Source of the DNA: Symmachiella dynata
GTDB lineage: Bacteria; Planctomycetota; Planctomycetia; Planctomycetales; Planctomycetaceae
Direction of reading: 5' to 3'
Assembly (NCBI RefSeq): GCF_007747995.1
Contig: NZ_CP036276.1
Span: forward strand, 4,703,001-4,767,000
Length of the DNA stretch: 64,000 nucleotides
The notes under the pieces are model-generated. The model saw only the letters and a list, made by a program, of their open reading frames with translations. It made no database searches and was not told the origin of the DNA. Below, piece by piece: positions 30,557-46,409 of this stretch. Every line of letters starts with the position of its first letter. Position 1 is the first letter of the stretch. Both the position numbers and the translations under genes were made by a program.

Positions 30557-32389
30557 ATGCGACGTTTTGCGTTTGTTTTTGTGCTGCTTGGACTCACCGC
30601 GCCTCTCGACGCGCTGGCCGGTACGTCCAATAGCTTGATGGATATCTCCGCCGACGGCCGTTTATTAGCTTGCTCAAATCGCGACAACGGCACGGTGAGT
30701 CTTGTCGATCTGCAATCGAACGCCGTGATACGCGAAATCCCCGTCGGGCATCATCCCGAAGGAGTCAGTTTTCTGGGAGAGACGCACAATCTAGCAGTGG
30801 CGGTCTATGACGAGGATCAAGTTCTCTTCATTGATGGTCAAACGGGAAAAATTGATGCTCGCATTGATGTGTTCGACGAACCGTACGGCGTCGTTTCCAA
30901 CAGCGACGGCAGCCGCGTTTACGTGACCTTGGAATATCCCGGCACCGTGTTGGAAATCGATACGGCTGCACACACGGTGCTGCGCTCCTTGCCTGCCGGA
31001 AAGTTCCTCCGTGGCATTGCGATCGAACCGGGTGAGGAACGACTGTTAGTCTCCGAATACCACACCGGCATTGTCAAAGCGATCGAATTGAAGTCCGGCA
31101 AAGTCGTCGACAGTTGGCAAGGTTCGCGAGATGATAACCTAGCGCGGCAACTGCAACCGCACCCCACGCGTCCCAAGGTCTATCTGCCCCACATCCGCTC
31201 CAAAATAACCGTCACACATGGTGCCGGTTCCATTTTCCCCTACGTGACCGTCATCGACTCCGCCCCCGGCGAGGGTCGCCGCCGCAAACCGATTGCCATG
31301 GATTCCTTCAAAGGAACCTTGGTCGTCGCCAACCCTTGGGAATTGGCGATTTCGCCCGACGGCCAACGGCTGTATGTGGTCTTTGCCGGGACGGACGACA
31401 TGTACGTCTGCGACATTTTGGATGACAATTATCGCGAAATCAAATTTGTGAAAGTCAAAAACCTCGGCCGCAATCCCCGCGCGGTCCGCGTCGCACCGGA
31501 CAATCAATCGTTTTACGTCTACAACGCTCTCGACTTTGCTGTGGTCAAATACGATGCTCACACACTGCGGCCGATTGCGACCATCCCCGTCTGTGAAAAC
31601 CCGCACGATGAACAAATCCTGCTGGGCAAGGTGCTATTTTATTCCGCACAGCAACCGATGGTCGGCCGCCGTTGGATTTCCTGCGCCAGTTGTCATCCGG
31701 ACGGGCACAGCGATGGACGGACTTGGCATAACCCCGAAGGACTACGCGATACGACCGCTCTGTTCGGCATGGCCTGGACGCATCCCATTCACTGGTCGGC
31801 GGATCGCGATGAGGTCCAAGACTTCGAACACACCATTCGCAGCCAACTGATGCAAGGTCGCGGACTGATCCGTGGTGACGTCAACCCGGCGTTGGAAACC
31901 CCCAATCGCGGACTCTCCGCCGAATTGGATGCCATCGCTGCCTATTCCAATTCCCACAAATTCACCCTCAGCCCACACGCCAAAACAGGCTTAAACGCGG
32001 CTGCCAAACGCGGACAAAAGCTGTTTTTCGATGAAGAAACCCAGTGCGCCACCTGCCACGGCGGACCTTTCTTCACCGACTCTCGCATGGAAAAACCATT
32101 CCGGCTGCACGACGTGGGCACAGGCAACGACGACCCCTCAGAAATCATGGGCCCCAAATACGATACCCCGACGCTGCTGGGGATTTATCGCACCGCCCCC
32201 TATCTGCATCACGGCAAAGCCAAGACGCTCCGGGATGTGCTCACGACACAAAACAAAAACGACCAACACGGTCAAACCAGTCATCTGTCAGCGGAACAAA
32301 TCGATGATCTCGTCGAGTTCCTCAAATGCCTACCGTACGAGGATCCGGAACCGGCGGCGATCAAGGCGGGTTTGCGGCGCGTTGATTGA
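30557..32389 (+). CDS. Exported YVTN-type beta-propeller fused to dihaem cytochrome c (MauG/CcpA-like)
   Basis: This 610-aa protein has a signal peptide (MRRFAFVFVLLGLTAPLDAL). Residues about 25-345 are YVTN-like propeller blades, e.g. GTVSLVDLQSNAVIREIPVG, GTVLEIDTAAHTVLRSLPAG and FAVVKYDAHTLRPIATIPVC. The C-terminal part has two haem c sites, CASCH (376-380) and CATCH (497-501), in a context like cytochrome-c peroxidase/MauG: LFFDEETQCATCHGGPFFTD, then YDTPTLLGIYRTAPYLHHGK. It should act outside the cytoplasm in electron transfer or peroxide or cofactor chemistry. The propeller may bind a partner. It ends at a strong terminator. Confidence 0.88.
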   Translation: MRRFAFVFVLLGLTAPLDALAGTSNSLMDISADGRLLACSNRDNGTVSLVDLQSNAVIREIPVGHHPEGVSFLGETHNLAVAVYDEDQVLFIDGQTGKIDARIDVFDEPYGVVSNSDGSRVYVTLEYPGTVLEIDTAAHTVLRSLPAGKFLRGIAIEPGEERLLVSEYHTGIVKAIELKSGKVVDSWQGSRDDNLARQLQPHPTRPKVYLPHIRSKITVTHGAGSIFPYVTVIDSAPGEGRRRKPIAMDSFKGTLVVANPWELAISPDGQRLYVVFAGTDDMYVCDILDDNYREIKFVKVKNLGRNPRAVRVAPDNQSFYVYNALDFAVVKYDAHTLRPIATIPVCENPHDEQILLGKVLFYSAQQPMVGRRWISCASCHPDGHSDGRTWHNPEGLRDTTALFGMAWTHPIHWSADRDEVQDFEHTIRSQLMQGRGLIRGDVNPALETPNRGLSAELDAIAAYSNSHKFTLSPHAKTGLNAAAKRGQKLFFDEETQCATCHGGPFFTDSRMEKPFRLHDVGTGNDDPSEIMGPKYDTPTLLGIYRTAPYLHHGKAKTLRDVLTTQNKNDQHGQTSHLSAEQIDDLVEFLKCLPYEDPEPAAIKAGLRRVD

Positions 32390-32409
32390 TATTGAACATT
32401 CAAGTAGAC

Positions 32410-32447
32410 AAACAGGCCCGCGTCTCGTGAGAAACGCGGGCCTGTTT
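32410..32447. terminator. Bidirectional terminator
   Basis: AAACAGGCCCGCGT pairs perfectly with ACGCGGGCCTGTTT (14 bp, 10-nt loop), with T residues on both sides of the stem ends. It lies between the convergent cytochrome-fusion and oxidoreductase genes. Confidence 0.88.
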
Positions 32448-36483: not shown

Positions 36484-36753
36484 ATGACTGAACCAGACGC
36501 AGCCGCCGCGCCGGATGGACCGACCAACGAAGAACTCAAACGCGCGCTAAAAGCCTTCAAAAAACGCCTCAAACTGACCCGTACCGATGACGAGGCCCGG
36601 CTCGGTTACGGCGGCATGACCAGCGGCCGCAAATCAGCAATCACCGGCATCACCCCGCCCAACCAATACCCCCCCGCCGTCTGGCAAGAGCTGGTCAAAC
36701 GAGGCAAACTCAAACACATCGGCCAAGGCCTGTACGAGTTGGTGCCAGTCTGA
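36484..36753 (+). CDS. Small conserved hypothetical protein
   Basis: This 89-aa basic protein has a helical N-terminal half (NEELKRALKAFKKRLKLTR). Then comes a Gly/Ser-rich turn (GYGGMTSGRKSAITGITPP) and a compact end (WQELVKRGKLKHIGQGLYEL). AAGGAG lies 9 nt before the ATG at 36484; the frame upstream to 36358 is not needed. I recognise the pattern from unnamed planctomycete proteins but know no function. The C-terminal shape, WQELVKRGKL followed by GLYEL, resembles a small winged-helix wing. This is only an impression. Confidence 0.7.
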   Translation: MTEPDAAAAPDGPTNEELKRALKAFKKRLKLTRTDDEARLGYGGMTSGRKSAITGITPPNQYPPAVWQELVKRGKLKHIGQGLYELVPV

Positions 36754-36819
36754 TGGGTGGTGGTTAACGAACGGACTTACAGGACTGTTTTCGGACCAAG
36801 ACGAGTATAGGTTGAAGCG

Positions 36820-37278
36820 ATGCCGCAAGAACCTAATTCCGACTGTAATTGTGGCGTACCTCAACTTTGTGCAGCGGATAGGAATTGCCCAATCGACTGG
36901 GATTCCGAATTGCATGAATTCCAATTGGGCGATTTTGAAGGTCGCCAGTCTTGGGTGATTCGTTACTGCTTCAATTGCGGGAAGCCTCTCTCTGGATCCA
37001 AGCGAGCTGACCTCTTCTTCGAAATGAATGCTATTGAAGTTGATGACGTCCAACGACGATTCAAATCAATTCAGTCCGTCGAAGCGTTGGTTCACCAGTT
37101 GGGTGAACCAGACGTTTGTACATCGACGGGTGGCGAGGATGTTGATTGGCCCCATGACTTATCCAACGAAGAGCGCGCCTACCTAACATACCTACGATAC
37201 TGGACGACTGTGGACGTGATGGTTCCGGTAGAAAAGGGAAATTTAGCCGGGTTTATCTGTAGCCCGAGGCGAAAGTGA
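36820..37278 (+). CDS. Cys-rich zinc-ribbon-like hypothetical protein
   Basis: This 152-aa protein has Cys at CNCGVPQLC near the start and a zinc-ribbon half, IRYCFNCGKPLSGSKRADLF. The pattern C-x2-CGKPL with following S-K-R resembles the DUF6980-type small proteins seen as immunity or accessory proteins. The rest is mixed alpha/beta with a conserved-looking VEALVHQLGEPD. No signal or membrane segment is present. It sits just before the direct-repeat-bounded cassette. An immunity-like role is a guess from resemblance and context only. Confidence 0.6.
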   Translation: MPQEPNSDCNCGVPQLCAADRNCPIDWDSELHEFQLGDFEGRQSWVIRYCFNCGKPLSGSKRADLFFEMNAIEVDDVQRRFKSIQSVEALVHQLGEPDVCTSTGGEDVDWPHDLSNEERAYLTYLRYWTTVDVMVPVEKGNLAGFICSPRRK

Positions 37279-37301
37279 CTTTTATCGCGCAGTCGATAAT
37301 C

Positions 37302-37420
37302 AGTTCAAGTAGGTCCGACTGTGCCGGACGATAACAGCGAGGGTGACAACAAACAGGTAACCACTGACAGCGCATGTCTCCCCAATCAGCGGCCGGTAGA
37401 ACCGGCCCGGCCCTACGGGA
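37302..37420. repeat. Long direct repeat, copy 1
   Basis: This 119-nt repeat is about 98 % identical to 38039-38152. The differences are two substitutions and a 5-nt tandem GGCCC duplication present only here. It contains two hairpins: GTCCGAC/GCCGGAC (one mismatch) around the sequence TGT, and GGCCGGT-aga-ACCGGCC. With copy 2 it brackets an AT-rich segment of about 618 nt. Confidence 0.9.
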
Positions 37421-37653
37421 CTGGCCTAGGGAAGGAAGCAAGAGACCGAGCTGTAGCTGCCTTCTGTGCCGCTAAACCTGGGCATCCTATTTGCAAAGAT
37501 GGGCACGGAGGTTGGATGGATTCAATTCTAGATATTGCAGCGAATCACTCGTGTGTTTACTGGGAACAGTTCGCATTTGGTTTATGCGGTAGTTGGATCG
37601 GTGGCCTTATACGAGAAAGCTGCGAGGATTGCTGTGACAAACATCATCCGTAA
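37321..37653 (+). CDS. Small Cys-rich protein, possibly a gene tail fused to the repeat
   Basis: This 110-codon frame starts with GTG inside direct repeat copy 1. Its first 30 or so codons are therefore repeat sequence, and the same peptide MPDDNSEGDNKQVTT also occurs in copy 2. The unique part (from about residue 34) looks coding: ARDRAVAAFCAAKPGHPICK, then helical segments and CGSWIGG, ending ESCEDCCDKHHP, with seven Cys in total. This pattern could be the C-terminal tip of a larger secreted or polymorphic-toxin protein whose 5' part was replaced by the repeat, or a short disulfide or metal-binding protein. I do not recognise a family. Confidence 0.4.
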   Translation: MPDDNSEGDNKQVTTDSACLPNQRPVEPARPYGTGLGKEARDRAVAAFCAAKPGHPICKDGHGGWMDSILDIAANHSCVYWEQFAFGLCGSWIGGLIRESCEDCCDKHHP

Positions 37654-38038
37654 GGTTGTGGTATATTCCATCTCTAAGAGAGACAGAGTCTTTGGGTGGG
37701 CAAGTGTAATGCTAATTGGCTCATCCCTAATGCTGCAGTTTTTTATTTTTGCTATATATAATATGGATACTAGTCCCTCTGTGGCAGTGCCGCCTAGTGC
37801 CATTGATATAACACCGGCACGCGCCGATTTGTTAGAAGACATTAAAATGCGACGCATAACTATTAATGTAAGAACTCGTAGCATCTTTGGTTCGGTTCTT
37901 GATCTAAGTTGCATTTCCATGTACTGCCTATTGCTGGGCGTAATAAGCTTTATGGCCATGAAAGGCTCCGAAAAAAAGAGGGCAAACCTGAGGTGCGCGA
38001 GGTCCAAAAACAATGACGTACGAAAACTGAACCCATAA
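37634..38038 (+). CDS. Small two-helix membrane protein in the cassette
   Basis: This 134-aa protein uses GTG at 37634 (VTNIIRKVVVYS), with GAGG about 7 nt upstream. It overlaps the end of the preceding frame by 20 nt, suggesting coupled translation. Membrane segments lie at about residues 20-42 (WASVMLIGSSLMLQFFIFAI) and 90-112 (SCISMYCLLLGVISFMAM). Between them is an extracytoplasmic or loop region with a charged helix. The end is basic. The sequence is AT-richer than all neighbouring genes, suggesting foreign origin. There is no family match I can name. An immunity-type membrane protein for the preceding Cys-rich product is one reading. Confidence 0.5.
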   Translation: MTNIIRKVVVYSISKRDRVFGWASVMLIGSSLMLQFFIFAIYNMDTSPSVAVPPSAIDITPARADLLEDIKMRRITINVRTRSIFGSVLDLSCISMYCLLLGVISFMAMKGSEKKRANLRCARSKNNDVRKLNP

Positions 38039-38152
38039 AGTTCAAGTAGGTCCGGCTGTGCCGGACGATAACAGCGAGGGTGACAACAAACAGGTAACCA
38101 CCGACAGCGCATGTCTCCCCAATCAGCGGCCGGTAGAACCGGCCCTACGGGA
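38039..38152. repeat. Long direct repeat, copy 2
   Basis: This is the 114-nt partner of 37302-37420. Here both hairpins are perfect: GTCCGGC-tgt-GCCGGAC and GGCCGGT-aga-ACCGGCC. It ends 25 nt before the DJ-1/PfpI-family gene. The reading frame carried by the repeat runs in phase into that gene. Confidence 0.9.
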
Positions 38153-38177: not shown

Positions 38178-38774
38178 ATGACGACGCGCAATCTCGCCAT
38201 CCTACTGTTTGACGACGTGGAAGTGCTCGATTTCTGCGGACCCTTCGAGGTCTTTTCGGTGGCCGGCCATTTTGTCGATCCCGTCGCATTTGAAGTTTAT
38301 ACGGTGGCCGAACAGGCCGGTCCGGTCATCGCTCGCAACGGACTGAGCGTTAATCCGCATTACGGGCTACACGACTGCCCGCCGCCGGATCTGCTGATCG
38401 TCCCCGGCGGACAGGGAACCCGTACGCAGATGCACAATCCCGTTCTGATCGAGTGGATCAAACAGGTCGCCGGAGAATCCGAACTCCTGCTGTCGGTCTG
38501 CACGGGAGCATTGATGCTGGCCCGAGCGGGCTTGCTCAACGGACTGGAGGTGACCACCCACGCCAATTCGATCGAAGCATTGCGAGAACTCGTCCCCGAT
38601 GCCACCGTCCATCCCGACCGACGCTTCGTAGACAATGGCCGCGTGATCTGCTCCGCCGGCATCGCCGCCGGAATCGACATGAGCCTGCACGTCGTAGCGC
38701 GACTGTTGGGAACCGAAGTCGCAGAGAAAACATCACAGCACATGGAGTATCCCTGGGAACCAGCAAGCCGGTAG
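38178..38774 (+). CDS. DJ-1/PfpI family protein
   Basis: This 198-aa protein has the flavodoxin-like DJ-1/PfpI fold: LAILLFDDVEVLDFCGPFEV, LIVPGGQGTRTQM, and the nucleophile elbow LLLSVCTGALMLARAG with the conserved Cys. The pattern DVEVLDFCGPFEVF is that of the amidase-like subgroup often fused to AraC regulators; no helix-turn-helix is present here. Possible roles include glyoxalase or isonitrile-hydratase-like chemistry. The start is ATG 38178 (MTTRNLAILLF). Upstream in-frame codons belong to the direct repeat and are probably not part of the protein. Confidence 0.88.
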   Translation: MTTRNLAILLFDDVEVLDFCGPFEVFSVAGHFVDPVAFEVYTVAEQAGPVIARNGLSVNPHYGLHDCPPPDLLIVPGGQGTRTQMHNPVLIEWIKQVAGESELLLSVCTGALMLARAGLLNGLEVTTHANSIEALRELVPDATVHPDRRFVDNGRVICSAGIAAGIDMSLHVVARLLGTEVAEKTSQHMEYPWEPASR

Positions 38775-39807: not shown

Positions 39808-40061
39808 AATCGGTGTCCTGCGATTCCATGATCTGTCATCGGTCGAAGGGTGGCCGGATCACCTAGTGAGAAACGATTTGATGTCTCACCTGCAGGCGGC
39901 AAGTCAGCAGCCTAGCGCCCAGCCACTCGATTCTCACAGGTCGCATTGTACCAATGATATTCGCGTTTTTCACACGTTTTTTTTGGGGGGGGCTACGGTG
40001 ATTGCGTACTTGCGTGTTGAACATTGTTAATAGGTTTGGCAGGCTTAAGTCGCCTCTGGTT
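39808..40061. other. Short intergenic stretch with a T8G8 tract
   Basis: A homopolymer pair (eight T, then eight G) occurs at about 39977-39992. No gene is seen. Confidence 0.5.
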
Positions 40062-40493
40062 TCAGTCATCCGTGTCGGTCGTCTCTGCTCCCACCTCGTC
40101 GCCCTTCATCTTTCCGAAATTTGATATCGTGAAAAAAAACAGGACGACATGCACCATTAACGAGAAGAGATAGAAAACGATGCCAACAACAACAGTCCAA
40201 GTTGAAAAAGAAAACGGAAATCGGTCCAAATTTGCGAAAACGACTGCGAAGAAGAGTCCAGAGGCAACCCCTCCACAAATCATCCGCAATGTTGAGAATT
40301 TAAACTCTGCAACGTCCTTCGATTGACTCTCAGCCATGAAACCGAAAAGAGGATACGAAAAGAACATTCCGTAAAGTCCCGCCAATGGTGCCACGGTTCT
40401 CGTGTCAATATCACCAGACAGCCACAGCATGGCAAGCATTGAGGCAATCGAAGTAAGTTCGAAACCCAATGCGAAAGACCACAGTTTTATCAT
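40062..40493 (-). CDS. Small four-helix membrane protein
   Basis: This 143-aa protein has about four hydrophobic helices covering almost the whole length (FALGFELTSIASMLAMLWL, PLAGLYGMFFSYPLFGFM, GVASGLFFAVVFANL, TVVVGIVFYLFSLMVHVVLF). The tail is acidic (GDEVGAETTDTDD). It is AT-richer than average. I do not recognise it. It belongs to a run of small minus-strand membrane genes in an accessory-looking region. Confidence 0.6.
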   Translation of the reverse strand: MIKLWSFALGFELTSIASMLAMLWLSGDIDTRTVAPLAGLYGMFFSYPLFGFMAESQSKDVAEFKFSTLRMICGGVASGLFFAVVFANLDRFPFSFSTWTVVVGIVFYLFSLMVHVVLFFFTISNFGKMKGDEVGAETTDTDD

Positions 40494-40649
40494 GGGAGTC
40501 GCACCTCAGGCTAATCAAACTGAAACCCAAATTCGTCGAGACCGGTTATTGATCGTTTAGTGTGATTCGCAGACCCCGCTGATTTATTCACTTGTGCGAA
40601 AACAAACACCATTTTGCTCAACACGTCCACCCGTAGGTCAGTGTGCAGG

Positions 40650-40664
40650 TCAGGCAGCCGCCTG
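40650..40664. repeat. Short hairpin repeat, copy 1
   Basis: TCAGGC-agcc-GCCTGc (five paired bases plus a mismatch at the end), in the gap between two small membrane-protein genes. Related copies lie at 41092 and 43445. Confidence 0.65.
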
Positions 40665-40752
40665 CCCTAAGTTTCCTGTGAATTTAACACCCAACCGAAC
40701 GCCCATCGCGACCGCACAACCCGGCGACTTCTGGCCGTGCCAACTTGCAGAA

Positions 40753-41079
40753 TTAGCCGTCGCTTCGGTTGCGCCACTGCCACAGTTCGACGACGGTGTA
40801 TCCGATCAAGGCGACCCTGCAGAATAACTGCAACGTGAACCCCTTGATCAACAGCATCTCGATACCACTGACGGTTGCAAATGAAAAGTAAAGCATCAAC
40901 GGGATCGCCACCCATTTGAGGTCGAACCAAACAAGCAACGACATCAGTCCCAGCGTTCCGTACAGCACAGTGAAGCCGATTGACCCCTCGCGAACGTTGA
41001 TGAATGCGAGAAAAAAACCGGCCAGCGCCAGCAGGGGAGAAAGCCAGATGAGATTTCCGCCAGGACTTTTGAAGCGCAT
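40753..41079 (-). CDS. Small three- to four-helix membrane protein
   Basis: This 108-aa protein is hydrophobic throughout: WLSPLLALAGFFLAFI, TVLYGTLGLMSLLVWF, WVAIPLMLYFSFATV, LFCRVALIGYTVVELW. It ends in a short basic tail (QWRNRSDG). Family unknown. The gene is bracketed by short hairpin repeats at 40650 and 41092. Confidence 0.5.
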   Translation of the reverse strand: MRFKSPGGNLIWLSPLLALAGFFLAFINVREGSIGFTVLYGTLGLMSLLVWFDLKWVAIPLMLYFSFATVSGIEMLLIKGFTLQLFCRVALIGYTVVELWQWRNRSDG

Positions 41080-41091
41080 GCTACATGTAGA

Positions 41092-41107
41092 TCAGGCAAC
41101 CGCCTGA
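41092..41107. repeat. Short hairpin repeat, copy 2
   Basis: TCAGGC-aacc-GCCTGA is a perfect 6-bp palindrome with a 4-nt loop, just upstream of the membrane-protein gene ending at 40753. Confidence 0.7.
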
Positions 41108-41167
41108 CTCCTTAAAGACTTGATCATCAAATGTGGTTTGCACCATGCGGCCGCCTGGCCTGCGTCG

Positions 41168-41494
41168 CTAAAAATTGGCATAGGGATGTGCGATCGCGAA
41201 GTCGGTGCGCCAGTGTTGTGCGAATGTCGTGATGACGAATATCGGGATGAATCCGAAACGCACAGCGAGTAAATCACAGCGTGTCGGATTTTGTGGCCGG
41301 CGGTAGGTAATCAGCGTAATTAGAAGCCATTGGGAGATGATTGCCACGGTGCAGGCACGGTTCATTTGCCCAAAGTCGAGCATCAACAGCGTGAGCAACC
41401 AGATCGGGAGTTGCTGATACGCGGCAAACCGAATAGCGCGGTCCATTTTCGGATCAATTGGTGTCGCGGCTTTTTCTTCAGAAACCCGTGACAT
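41168..41494 (-). CDS. Small membrane protein
   Basis: This 108-aa protein starts MSRVSEEKAATPIDPKMDRA and has two to three hydrophobic helices (LPIWLLTLLMLDFG, CTVAIISQWLLITLITY, VRFGFIPIFVITTFAQ). The start at 41494 has a GGTGG site upstream; a start eight codons earlier is possible. I do not recognise it. Like its neighbours, it may belong to a set of planctomycete-only inner-membrane proteins. Confidence 0.5.
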   Translation of the reverse strand: MSRVSEEKAATPIDPKMDRAIRFAAYQQLPIWLLTLLMLDFGQMNRACTVAIISQWLLITLITYRRPQNPTRCDLLAVRFGFIPIFVITTFAQHWRTDFAIAHPYANF

Positions 41495-41636
41495 AGGAAC
41501 CACCACGCTACGAATCACGTACGAAGATGTTGATTAAATTCTCACTGGACCGTCCACTTGCCTAGGAGGCAGTGTTTCGCTGCAGCGTTCTGGTTAGCAC
41601 GACTTTTTGCGAAACGCTTGCAGCCTCTCCGAATCA

Positions 41637-42077
41637 TCATTCTGTTGGGTCAAGCCTTGCCCCCTTCAGGTGAAGCTCAATGCCTTTCCGGTTGTGAAAT
41701 CCCGCAGCAAGCTCGCCAAGCTGGTCATAGACCAACGAGAGCAATTGGATACGCGACCAAAAGTCCTGCTCTTTGGGAACGGGACACTTCAAGGCGAACA
41801 CCAATTCAAACCGGTACTCCTTTCCCCACAACAGCACTTCTACGTGTGACATCTTCGAAGAAATACGCTCGCTAAAAGGAACTAAAGCGATTCCTGGTGC
41901 GGTGCTTGCCAACTGCGAGACGAACCCGCTGACCTCGTCGTATGCCTGGCGTAGGCCATCGAAAGCCACCTGTGATGTCCGCGCATCACTGTGAAGTGTC
42001 ACAGGCACGAGAAAACTCTCCGACGCAAGCACTGCGCCGTTTGATGCTGAAAGACGGGTGTCTGGTGATTTGAACAT
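41637..42077 (-). CDS. Hypothetical soluble protein
   Basis: This 146-aa protein has alternating helix and strand character: VAFDGLRQAYDEVSGFVSQL, MSHVEVLLWGKEYRFELVFA, IQLLSLVYDQLGELAAGFH. There is no signal peptide or membrane helix. Sequence quality supports a real gene on the minus strand. I cannot assign a family or function. Confidence 0.55.
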   Translation of the reverse strand: MFKSPDTRLSASNGAVLASESFLVPVTLHSDARTSQVAFDGLRQAYDEVSGFVSQLASTAPGIALVPFSERISSKMSHVEVLLWGKEYRFELVFALKCPVPKEQDFWSRIQLLSLVYDQLGELAAGFHNRKGIELHLKGARLDPTE

Positions 42078-42235
42078 GATGGCTGGCGGCGAGTGCTAAC
42101 TAGTATTTTTTAACAACCTTCGTCGAGAATACTCCCGAGCCAGCGGAAGCGTCAACACAATCCATCGCAAACCCGCTCCCACCAAGCCGGTTTCGTCGAC
42201 TCGGCATAAGTTCCGAATTTGGGACAGTCGCAATT

Positions 42236-43327
42236 TCACACATTGTTGCGGAGACTGTTCAATTTTCGCTGCAGCAACTCAGCGACATAAGCAGCGTCTT
42301 GACGATTTGCCATCCAGATAAAGAATTCTTTTTTCGGGGTCGACAAAGTCGCTACGCAGTTATGGTCCGAATTTTCGACGTCATCGATCCGTACCCGTTT
42401 TTTTTGCTCAGCGGCTAGGCGAGCTTCGAATCCAATGATTTCAGCGATAGGAACCGACAAAGTTACACGACAAGGGCCAAACAACGATGTCTGGCGAAGT
42501 TGCAACTCGGTCAGTTCCACAATGTTTGTTCCCCGAATCACCCAAACGGCCATGAGTAGGCAAACACCAGCGGGGACGACGTAGTAGGGCCACCACCAGT
42601 TAAATTCGATTCCCAGGAATACGGGTATCATTCCCAGCGTGATTCCTAAGATGATACCACCTGCTTTGGCCCCACACGTAGCTGCCGTCGGGAGTCGAAG
42701 CCGTAGACCGTTGGGCGGCATCTCCTCAACCTTCACAGTTGCTGGGGCTTCTCGATCGAGGATTTTCGCCCGTAACGCTAACTGCTCAGAGACCTCAGGG
42801 TCAAATTCCGCTCCCAAGAACCCATTGATCGTGTCGACCATCCAGTTCAGATCGCTCTCAGTCAGAGATTCGCCGAAACTTACAACGCCATCAACGCATT
42901 GAACTTCGATACGATAATCTGGGCCATCATCATTAGAGACAAGATCGGCACGCGAACTGGCATTCAGAGTCAATTGTTTTGTCCGGCTCCAGCCAAATAG
43001 ATTGCGCCTGACGACGATGCGATCTGGTTCCAGAAAAACGAGGACGGTTTCAAAGCACTTTTTGAACCAATAGCCCAGCAGGCACAAACCAATGACCAGC
43101 ATTACGCACAGCGCTATTGCAAAAGGCCACGCCTGCCAGATCCCATTTATCTTAAAGCATGTGAAGGCTATTATGCCGAGCCATTGCAAGGAAAATGACA
43201 GCAAAAACAAGCTACGTTGGCCAGCACCAGGGAGCCGAAACAGAATGGTCGTCTCATCCGGCTGAGTGAAGACGATTCGCGTTCTGCCGGGAGGTGTTAC
43301 CGCTGGTGAGTCGCTTGAGGTCGTCAT
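42236..43327 (-). CDS. Membrane protein with internally duplicated helix-pair plus PH-like module
   Basis: This 363-aa protein is built from two similar halves. Each has two membrane helices (about 40-60 and 67-88; then about 222-240 and 246-262). A strand-rich domain follows, beginning RIVVRRNLFGWSRTKQLTL in the first half and LQLRQTSLFGPCRVTLSV in the second. The layout recalls bacterial PH-domain (YdbS/DUF304-like) membrane proteins. The role is unknown. It is the longest of the unrecognised minus-strand membrane genes in this region. Confidence 0.6.
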   Translation of the reverse strand: MTTSSDSPAVTPPGRTRIVFTQPDETTILFRLPGAGQRSLFLLSFSLQWLGIIAFTCFKINGIWQAWPFAIALCVMLVIGLCLLGYWFKKCFETVLVFLEPDRIVVRRNLFGWSRTKQLTLNASSRADLVSNDDGPDYRIEVQCVDGVVSFGESLTESDLNWMVDTINGFLGAEFDPEVSEQLALRAKILDREAPATVKVEEMPPNGLRLRLPTAATCGAKAGGIILGITLGMIPVFLGIEFNWWWPYYVVPAGVCLLMAVWVIRGTNIVELTELQLRQTSLFGPCRVTLSVPIAEIIGFEARLAAEQKKRVRIDDVENSDHNCVATLSTPKKEFFIWMANRQDAAYVAELLQRKLNSLRNNV

Positions 43328-43444
43328 GTCGTTTTTTATCGTGCGAGCGCTTCACTGACATGGTGAAAAGGCCGTACACGTGAATTTTATCCGGACTCTG
43401 TGCGGGAATTCTATATCGCTCCGTGAAATTCCTTAGTGATTCGG

Positions 43445-43460
43445 TCAGGCAGCCGTTTGA
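43445..43460. repeat. Short hairpin repeat, copy 3 with extended partner
   Basis: TCAGGC-agcc-GTTTGA (two G-T pairs) is followed by GTCAAAC near 43479 and TCAGGCGGCTGG near 43496. A larger hairpin can therefore form over 43445-43508, reaching the stop codon of the WD40-type gene. Confidence 0.55.
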
Positions 43461-43508
43461 CGACCGCTCGGGTTGATGGTCAAACGCCGTTTGTATCAGG
43501 CGGCTGGC

Positions 43509-44624
43509 TTACCTACCCCCCTTACCGTTTTTCGCTCCTCTGGCCGAGCCTTTCTCTTCGCGGCCCAGAAGGAGATTCCACACGGCAACCGCACCGTCGT
43601 CCGTGCCGATTGCGATGGATGTCCCATCACCGCTGAACGTCACCGCGCTGATGGTTTGCGTTCCATAGGTCGTCGATGAAAGCGTCGTCCCAGTACGAAC
43701 GTCGCACAACACAAGCCGAGAACCGGAACCGTATGCCAGCATTTTGCCATCAGGACTCATGGCAAGGCCGCCGCAGTCCTCTTCCTTTGACCAAAGGCGT
43801 TCCCTTCGATCCATCGACCAGCAGACCAATGCTTCGTCACCTGATCCACGGACCACCTTGCCTGATGCACCGACCAAGTACTCACCGTTTGGAGAAATAG
43901 CGAGATGCCGAACAAAGGCAGGGGAATGAGGTTGCCGTTCATCGAAAACGATACGCCCCGAAGGCAGTTTTCGAACCAGCATACGGCCGCTGTCCAACTT
44001 ATTCTCAAGACCATAGGACTCCCAGCCAAGAGCGATCCTTGCTGCGTCCTTTGCCACTTGCAGCGAGAAAACGTTCCGGCCCGCTCCCTTCAATACCATC
44101 GTTTCTTTGCCATTTAAAGGGTTCCAAAAATGGAGATTCCCGCTAGACGAGGTGACAACCATTTCGGTTCCGTCTTTGCGCCAACTCGATACTGCCGGGG
44201 CGAACCCCTCGCCGTCACTCCCAAGAGTTCGGAGTGTCTTGCCCGACGAAGCATCCAATACAAGGGGATCGCGGTAATACGGTGCCAGCACGAGCATCTT
44301 GCCGTCACCAGCAAACGTCAGGGCGATCTCCTCTTCAGATACAGCGCCCACGGGCGGCAAACTGACTTCCCATGCTTTCACTCGCGTCTTCAGATTCCAT
44401 AGGTAAACACTACGGACCACGTCAGCAGAAGCCAAGTATTCCCCATTTGGCGAAAACGCAACAGACGACAATGACCAGCGACGCATTTTGAACTCCATTT
44501 CCGGCATCGCCGGCAGTCGGACGTCATCATCTGCCGAGGCCGCACGTGACGCTGCAAAAGGCACGACCAAGGCAAAAGCAACTGGCAGGAAAACGCCCAA
44601 GAAAACGTCTTTGATCCAATTCAT
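43509..44624 (-). CDS. Exported WD40-repeat protein
   Basis: This 371-aa protein has a signal peptide (VFLGVFLPVAFALVVPFAAS, cleavage near ASADD). WD40-like blades follow: SVAFSPNGEYLASADVVRSV, YLWNLKTR, MVVTSSSGNLHFWNPLNGKE, LAISPNGEYLVGASG, LAMSPDGKMLAYGSGSRLVL, AVTFSGDGTSIAIGTDDGAV, AVWNLL. At least six blades can be counted. Such proteins are interaction platforms; the partner is unknown. The end of the gene touches the third short hairpin repeat. Confidence 0.82.
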   Translation of the reverse strand: MNWIKDVFLGVFLPVAFALVVPFAASRAASADDDVRLPAMPEMEFKMRRWSLSSVAFSPNGEYLASADVVRSVYLWNLKTRVKAWEVSLPPVGAVSEEEIALTFAGDGKMLVLAPYYRDPLVLDASSGKTLRTLGSDGEGFAPAVSSWRKDGTEMVVTSSSGNLHFWNPLNGKETMVLKGAGRNVFSLQVAKDAARIALGWESYGLENKLDSGRMLVRKLPSGRIVFDERQPHSPAFVRHLAISPNGEYLVGASGKVVRGSGDEALVCWSMDRRERLWSKEEDCGGLAMSPDGKMLAYGSGSRLVLCDVRTGTTLSSTTYGTQTISAVTFSGDGTSIAIGTDDGAVAVWNLLLGREEKGSARGAKNGKGGR

Positions 44625-44744
44625 TCTTGCACCTCTGGAATGTCGCTGTGACAGTTACGTAAGGCCTATTGCACGGGCTAACATTTGCGATTAGGCAATC
44701 CATCGCGTTCTCATAACCAACTTCCGCCGACCACCAGCCGGAGC

Positions 44745-46067: not shown

Positions 46068-46409
46068 AAAAATAAACCTCCACCGGATGCCGGTCGAGCT
46101 GATTTGTGTGAACCCGCAATACAAAGGGGGGACCGACGACCGGGTTGTGTGAGCCGCATTCCTGACTAGGTCAGGGGGAGCGGATATACACGCTGCCGAC
46201 CAGAAATGGTCCCCTGCGGATATGTCATAGGGTCAACAAATAAGGGCCCGTATCGTACATGGCAGAGGTGCATCGAATCCTAGGGATCCAACAGCGTTGA
46301 TCCTAGCATCGGCCGCGCGGGTTCTCAAGAAGAAAGCGTCCGCAGGTGACGTTTTTCCCGGATCCACTTCACGGCGATTTTCGCCGACTCCGCGACTGGC
46401 GGTTGTCGC
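46068..46409. other. Intergenic region between DUF4912 gene and rarA
   Basis: No gene is seen. It contains a short dyad CTGAC-tag-GTCAG near 46162-46174. It should hold the rarA promoter and the 3' end of the DUF4912 transcript. Confidence 0.35.

Follow-up and report, generated by a model that had tools for sequence, protein, structure and literature searches.

Both near-identical repeats at 37302–37420 and 38039–38152 of the analysed window (a stretch of 64,000 nucleotides of the Symmachiella dynata genome) are copies of a REPIN, a non-autonomous element with two inverted GTAG-headed hairpins. Comparison with related genomes makes it fairly probable that REPINs of this family copy locally on one strand and that their edges are places of gain and loss of small genes.

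The direct repeats described in the first-pass annotation were confirmed in position and similarity: 37302–37408 and 38039–38145 are 98% identical across 107 nt on the same (forward) strand at a spacing of 737 bp, with 2 mismatches among the 107 positions and, in copy 1, an insertion of 5 nt beyond which the match picks up again for 14 nt. Copy 2 (38039–38152) is intact, and each end of its 103-nt core (38046–38148) consists of GTAG, a perfect 7-bp stem, and a 3-nt loop, the left REP hairpin (38046–38066, forward strand) and the right REP hairpin (38128–38148, reverse strand) being mutually inverted and both GTAG-headed. Copy 1 (37302–37420, GTAG...CTAC core 37309–37416) has the same plan in a decayed form, since its first stem carries a G-to-A change and the 5-nt insertion separates the intact second stem from the CTAC foot. 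Outside the core the copies have 7 bp of left and 4 bp of right flank in common. The DNA of copy 2 folds better than its shuffles (z −2.1) and that of copy 1 no better (z 0.09), so that the two stable hairpins ascribed to each repeat were recovered in copy 2 only. The short open frame noticed in the repeat is present, but it looks incidental, continuing in both copies in frame into the next open frame. The proposed search of the repeat against its own genome, performed with copy 2, returned full-length or near-full-length matches at these two places only and seven further matches of 24–34 nt, all of them end pieces; in the Rfam search no family reached the gathering threshold at the two repeats.

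The same ends with different middles were found elsewhere in the S. dynata genome. A strict left-end pattern gave 13 matches against 0 for the reversed-pattern control, and a looser pattern for either end was noisy, giving 37 matches but also 17 in the reversed control. A covariance model built on 14 members found matches in 8 of the 8 genomes searched, including 21 in S. dynata (G000), 20 in its sister species (G001), and 48 in a further genome of the genus (G002). Among the matches listed these correspond to at least 16, 18, and at least 36 distinct places, respectively, where some palindromic places stand on both strands and the counts cover 17 of the 21 S. dynata and 41 of the 48 G002 matches; one of the 16 S. 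dynata places, at 6004105, belongs to the CATG-stem family. The family thus has the many copies, mostly intergenic position, and preferred length of a REPIN: by home-made gene calls most members are intergenic and some overlap gene ends, and by hand count the middles measure 54–62 nt in 35 of 61 places, 27–32 nt in 15, and other lengths in 11. Some genomes carry hundreds of REPINs, more than were found here. Within the family the stems displayed no covariation beyond that of shuffles. The set of 61 places, which was also used for orientation, for the comparison of S. dynata with the sister species, and for the CT count given below, comprises 16 places of S. dynata, 17 of the sister species, and 28 of G002. 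Relative to the upstream gene the REPIN lies in the same orientation in 33 and in the opposite orientation in 28 of these 61 places, and a terminator-like role tied to the upstream gene was rejected on this ground.

Genes with the Pfam Y1_Tnp domain number 8 in S. dynata, 2 in the sister species, and 6 in G002. In the sister species one such gene (C1:3544031–3544390; 25.7 bits, cut-off 23) lies between two REPINs of this family, at 3543730 and 3544501, and the orthologous G002 locus encodes a 70% identical protein with a family REPIN on one side, so that a RAYT flanked by the same REPs is present in both genomes. The G002 protein belongs to NCBIfam NF047646, REP-associated tyrosine transposase (174.8 bits, cut-off 80); it was found by position, is not among the 6 G002 genes, and scores 20.8 bits in Pfam Y1_Tnp, under the cut-off of 23. 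At the orthologous site of S. dynata the RAYT gene is missing and the conserved flanks enclose 280 bp (6445100–6445379), which to the eye resemble hairpins belonging to a different REP family. The nearest S. dynata protein among those compared is 54% identical and has a different REP beside it, and two other RAYT-type genes of this genome (around 3180814 and 4660185) have GTAG-headed hairpins of other stems nearby. The dinucleotide CT occurs at positions 5–6 outside CTAC in 28 of 93 intact ends (16 of 46 on one side and 12 of 47 on the other), against a maximum of 18 at any position in 2000 shuffles, a comparison that gives no clean probability because the ends are partly related. TnpAREP is reported to cut at CT, probably guided by GTAG (PMC8266576).

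The sister species is about 90% identical to the window around the site. Both flanks are conserved in it, namely an 89-aa open frame on the left (36484–36753, forward strand) and a gene of the DJ-1/PfpI family on the right (38178–38774, forward strand), and between them the sister species has one REPIN (C3:540654–540756), the positional orthologue of copy 2, with no insert, the left conserved block ending 14 bp before the REPIN. The empty site with one repeat and the same flanking genes, which the first-pass annotation had proposed to look for, therefore exists. In place of these 14 bp the window has 1283 bp of new DNA (36763–38045), containing a 152-aa open frame at 36820, copy 1, and the two bracketed frames ORF1 and ORF2. 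The right synteny break falls exactly on the left edge of the copy 2 core (38046), and on the left the foreign DNA goes about 540 bp beyond copy 1 and thus beyond the bracket. In G002 the match to this locus is in the REPIN alone. Over the whole element with gaps counted, the identity between the two copies is 92%, and their identities to the copy of the sister species are 81 and 87% (92–93% by BLAST, a different measure). Since the two copies are nearer to each other than to that copy, the pair appears to have formed in place, and by sequence comparison one copy was made from the other after the split from the sister species, unless conversion made them alike. The idea of a hairpin-bounded mobile unit holds insofar as the repeat is of a mobile-element type; a two-gene cassette moving on its own is not supported, as the repeats are sisters made in place and the new DNA runs about 540 bp past copy 1. 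Other variable stretches occur in the window: right of the repeats, 40027–44730 is largely without a DNA counterpart in the sister species (one 77-bp match), and at 32386–32413 the sister species (C3:535146–536416) has 1269 extra bases where the window has 26.

The 618 nt between the repeats (37421–38038) have a GC content of 45.3%, compared with 55.3 ± 2.9% in windows of 618 nt placed at 50-base steps, of which 0.16% are as low; the AT-rich interior noticed earlier was thus borne out by the composition check suggested with it. Two overlapping small frames are also present as described, at 37321–37653 and 37535–38038; like the 36820 frame, they were not called by the home-made codon-score gene finder. 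Within them, ORF1 (37411–37653, forward strand) is a frame continuing out of the repeat, and ORF2 (37637–38038, forward strand, from a GTG start of our choice) overlaps the end of ORF1 and encodes a small protein of no family, in which two hydrophobic stretches can be seen by eye. The statement that neither frame belongs to a known family agrees with the Pfam, NCBIfam, and PADLOC searches, but the end of ORF1 weakly resembles an Rhs tail: its last 57 residues are 35% identical to the C-terminal end of a protein of another genome (G029), with an E value of 1e-5 for that single comparison. The G029 protein carries an Rhs core, whereas in ORF1 no Rhs core was found by Pfam or NCBIfam. Searches of ORF1 and ORF2 in 98 relatives gave no match besides this one. 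The 152-aa frame (36820–37278, forward strand), within the new DNA to the left of copy 1, is weakly DUF6980-like, at 20 bits against a Pfam cut-off of 27. For ORF1, ORF2, and the 36820 frame together no match was obtained in the PADLOC defence search up to E 0.1 or in the NCBIfam search up to E 0.01. It is plausible that ORF1 and ORF2 are a putative remnant of a tip-and-immunity pair.

The arrangement in the window recurs. Among the 70 places listed for S. dynata, the sister species, and G002, all 13 of 13 neighbour pairs more than 200 bp apart have the same orientation, at distances of 272–1455 bp, and one further pair at 76 bp, which was left unscored, is also in the same orientation; uniform placement of 61 places would give about 0.4 spaced pairs. 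The interiors of neighbours are on average 69.4% identical, compared with 36.1% in 821 other pairs of places from one genome (0 of 20,000 resamples), and the neighbour is the closest relative within the genome in 18 of 26 tests. In the set of 61 places two weak ones (974251 in G001 and C53 87116 in G002) were kept for their nearness to another match, others of like score being left out. When the weak rows are removed from the 70 places, 11 pairs have a mean of 69.1% versus 38.4% (0 of 20,000), with the neighbour closest in 14 of 22 tests. Interior identity within the pair reaches 98% in the window and 100% at 705 kb. By mechanical frame calling, 12 of the 13 pair gaps contain an open frame longer than 100 aa, one of these frames running to the gap edge. 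Outside the genus, in a genome of another genus of the family (G045, C30:26500–34000), three REPINs lie 1.0–1.9 kb apart in one orientation with interiors 90–97% equal; there a neighbouring 137-nt repeat is duplicated too, which makes it a mixed case, and the REPINs and this repeat stand between leucine-rich-repeat-like frames. Segmental duplication including the cargo was rejected for the focal genus, as in the seven regions in which a repeat was found, and likewise in the window, the duplication spans no more than the REPIN with a few adjoining bp; in one further region there was no repeat of 40 nt.

Copy number at these loci differs between S. dynata and its sister species in both directions. 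At 705 kb two copies in S. dynata stand opposite one in the sister species, the S. dynata copies being surrounded by about 3.5 kb of additional DNA; at 4687 kb there are three REPINs opposite one; at 344 kb S. dynata has two and the sister species has a different 2.3 kb in which no covariance-model match is found among the matches listed; and at 93 kb the case is reversed, with two REPINs in the sister species and one in S. dynata. The extra DNA near 705 kb that is absent at the site of the sister species includes a reverse transcriptase of retron/defence type (703142–704527; PADLOC RT_other, 476 bits), which the NCBIfam retron models match only below their cut-offs. A REPIN edge stands no more than 40 bp away from 14 of 32 synteny break points, compared with 10.4% of random intergenic control positions, a result favoured by taking break distances to the REPINs of both genomes and control distances to S. 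dynata REPINs only. Each of 16 gaps contributes both its ends to the 32 break points, the gaps coming from 11 locus pairs chosen around REPINs, and neither the break-point count nor that of CT is a clean probability, as related ends and pairs are not independent. A repeat scattered without any link to cargo would have spoken against the first-pass reading; the hairpin ends are indeed scattered, yet they are linked statistically to synteny breaks and to bracketed genes.

The reading that we favour, local one-strand copying of REPINs with small genes exchanged at their edges, starts from what the sections above document, that is, the REPIN identity of the repeats, the association with a RAYT within the genus, the empty site, the sister relation of the copies, and the recurrence of the pattern. 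The element is a REPIN, a type of sequence that a RAYT mobilises in trans. A resident REPIN, here copy 2, would give rise to a new copy a short way off on the same single strand, probably with both sites in one gap at a replication fork, and copying of this kind would account for both the short distances and the equal orientation. Transposition on the lagging strand is documented for members of IS200/IS605 (PMC6006769). Copies landing inside genes would be lost, as a result of which the survivors would bracket one or two genes, and small foreign genes would be gained or lost at REPIN edges by breaks or recombination. In the window, a foreign stretch of about 1.28 kb may have been gained beside the REPIN and would now contain the new copy. 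Against this reading, the neighbour is not the closest relative in 8 of the 26 tests, the REPINs at 460 kb and 7037 kb stand in unbroken synteny, and the cognate RAYT is absent from S. dynata although its window and 705-kb pairs postdate the split from the sister species. It follows that the copying either predates the loss of the gene, or uses another RAYT, or is not RAYT-driven. A wider and more tentative form of the proposal is that REPINs in this genus are recurrent sites of gain and loss of single small genes, similar to a cassette system without an integrase: cutting of REPINs by the RAYT would open the DNA, foreign genes might be captured at the edge, and copying of the REPIN across them would yield islets of gene-REPIN-gene-REPIN type. 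The examples behind it are the Rhs-tip-like frame, membrane proteins, and a RAYT inside brackets, with a SUKH gene and the retron-type reverse transcriptase close by.

The same observations were weighed under other explanations. Loss in the sister species, where an ancestral array of REPINs and genes would have collapsed by recombination between direct repeats to leave one REPIN, appears unlikely. It agrees with the single REPIN found opposite three filled S. dynata loci, with several break points 0–40 bp from the edges of that REPIN, and with the fact that direct repeats permit such a deletion; however, in the pairs of the window and of 705 kb the S. dynata copies resemble each other (interiors 98% and 100%) more than they resemble the copy of the sister species, which dates the formation of at least these two pairs to after the split, and the low GC content of the insert points to gain. 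The single copy in the sister species also bears on gene conversion between old copies, which would make neighbours similar without recent local copying. Direct repeats at short distance can convert, and some pairs are of intermediate identity; nevertheless this seems improbable, since with only one copy in the sister species at the window and 705-kb sites the second copy must have been made in S. dynata or lost in the sister species.

Two further explanations concern the block as a whole. REPIN, cargo, and REPIN might move together as a composite unit, in the manner of a cassette that lacks an integrase, either through a RAYT that acts at the two outer ends or by recombination of a circular form into a resident REPIN, and the recurrent same-orientation bracketing of small open frames, the RAYT gene bracketed likewise in the sister species, the single-REPIN sites opposite filled ones, and the duplicated unit ending in the focal genus at the REPIN plus a few bp all agree with it. 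We regard it as quite unlikely, as the weak Rhs-tail match is the only one obtained for the cargo proteins in 98 relatives, the new DNA reaches past the bracket, the REPIN copies, being sisters of the resident element, are not foreign, and a genome-wide search, made for the block of the window, found no second location. Integron-like gene cassettes with attC-like recombination sites would likewise place palindromic repeats in direct orientation beside small unrelated genes. An attC site is oriented with its gene, whereas in the 61 REPIN places the orientation is not coupled to the upstream gene (33 same, 28 opposite), and this speaks against a site of the integron type; in addition, the elements have two separate end hairpins with GTAG/CTAC ends and not attC core sites, as compared by eye with the known core-site motif, and family members are scattered through the genome. 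This candidate was therefore rejected, and its probability is minimal.

The element agrees with the REPIN of Bertels and Rainey 2011 (PMC3116915) in its two inverted GTAG-headed REPs, fixed spacing, mostly intergenic location, and RAYT genes beside members. Tandem REPIN clusters and REPIN excision are also reported there, and in P. fluorescens SBW25 next-neighbour distances above 200 bp are described as having no significant deviation from random (PMC3116915); unlike those REPINs, the sister pairs observed here at 272–1455 bp are enriched, equally oriented, bracket open frames, and in several cases stand at synteny breaks. The GTAG foot, the palindrome, and the opposite-oriented dimers are common to the GTAG-tagged REP super-family of Di Nocera et al. 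2013, which is reported to occur in Planctomycetes, and the statements of that paper on Planctomycetes, as far as considered here, carry no link to gene gain or bracketing (PMC3733652). The BIME or palindromic units of Escherichia coli are also inverted palindromic units between genes and account for 8–16% of the variable segments or loci listed for sets of E. coli in PMC2884548, while the REPIN described here differs in flanking small insertions and in having locally derived paired copies. RAYTs share their Y1 HUH superfamily with the enzymes of IS200/IS605-type single-strand transposition, but the REPIN has no transposase inside and single-strand copying is here a conjecture from distance and orientation. 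REPINs and GTAG REPs are thus already known, also in this phylum, and it is the arrangement of local sister pairs bracketing genes that appears to be new; in the passages of the open-licence literature considered here, no report of REPs bracketing or attracting accessory genes was found.

To our knowledge, whether REPINs affect genome content beyond themselves has been little tested. Several of the REPINs analysed mark sites where one of two sister species carries a small block of genes that the other lacks, and the local same-orientation sister pairs may be a footprint of single-strand, short-range copying. Elsewhere in the window, on the reverse strand at 46073–46271, a 6S RNA was matched at 64.4 bits, above the Rfam gathering score.
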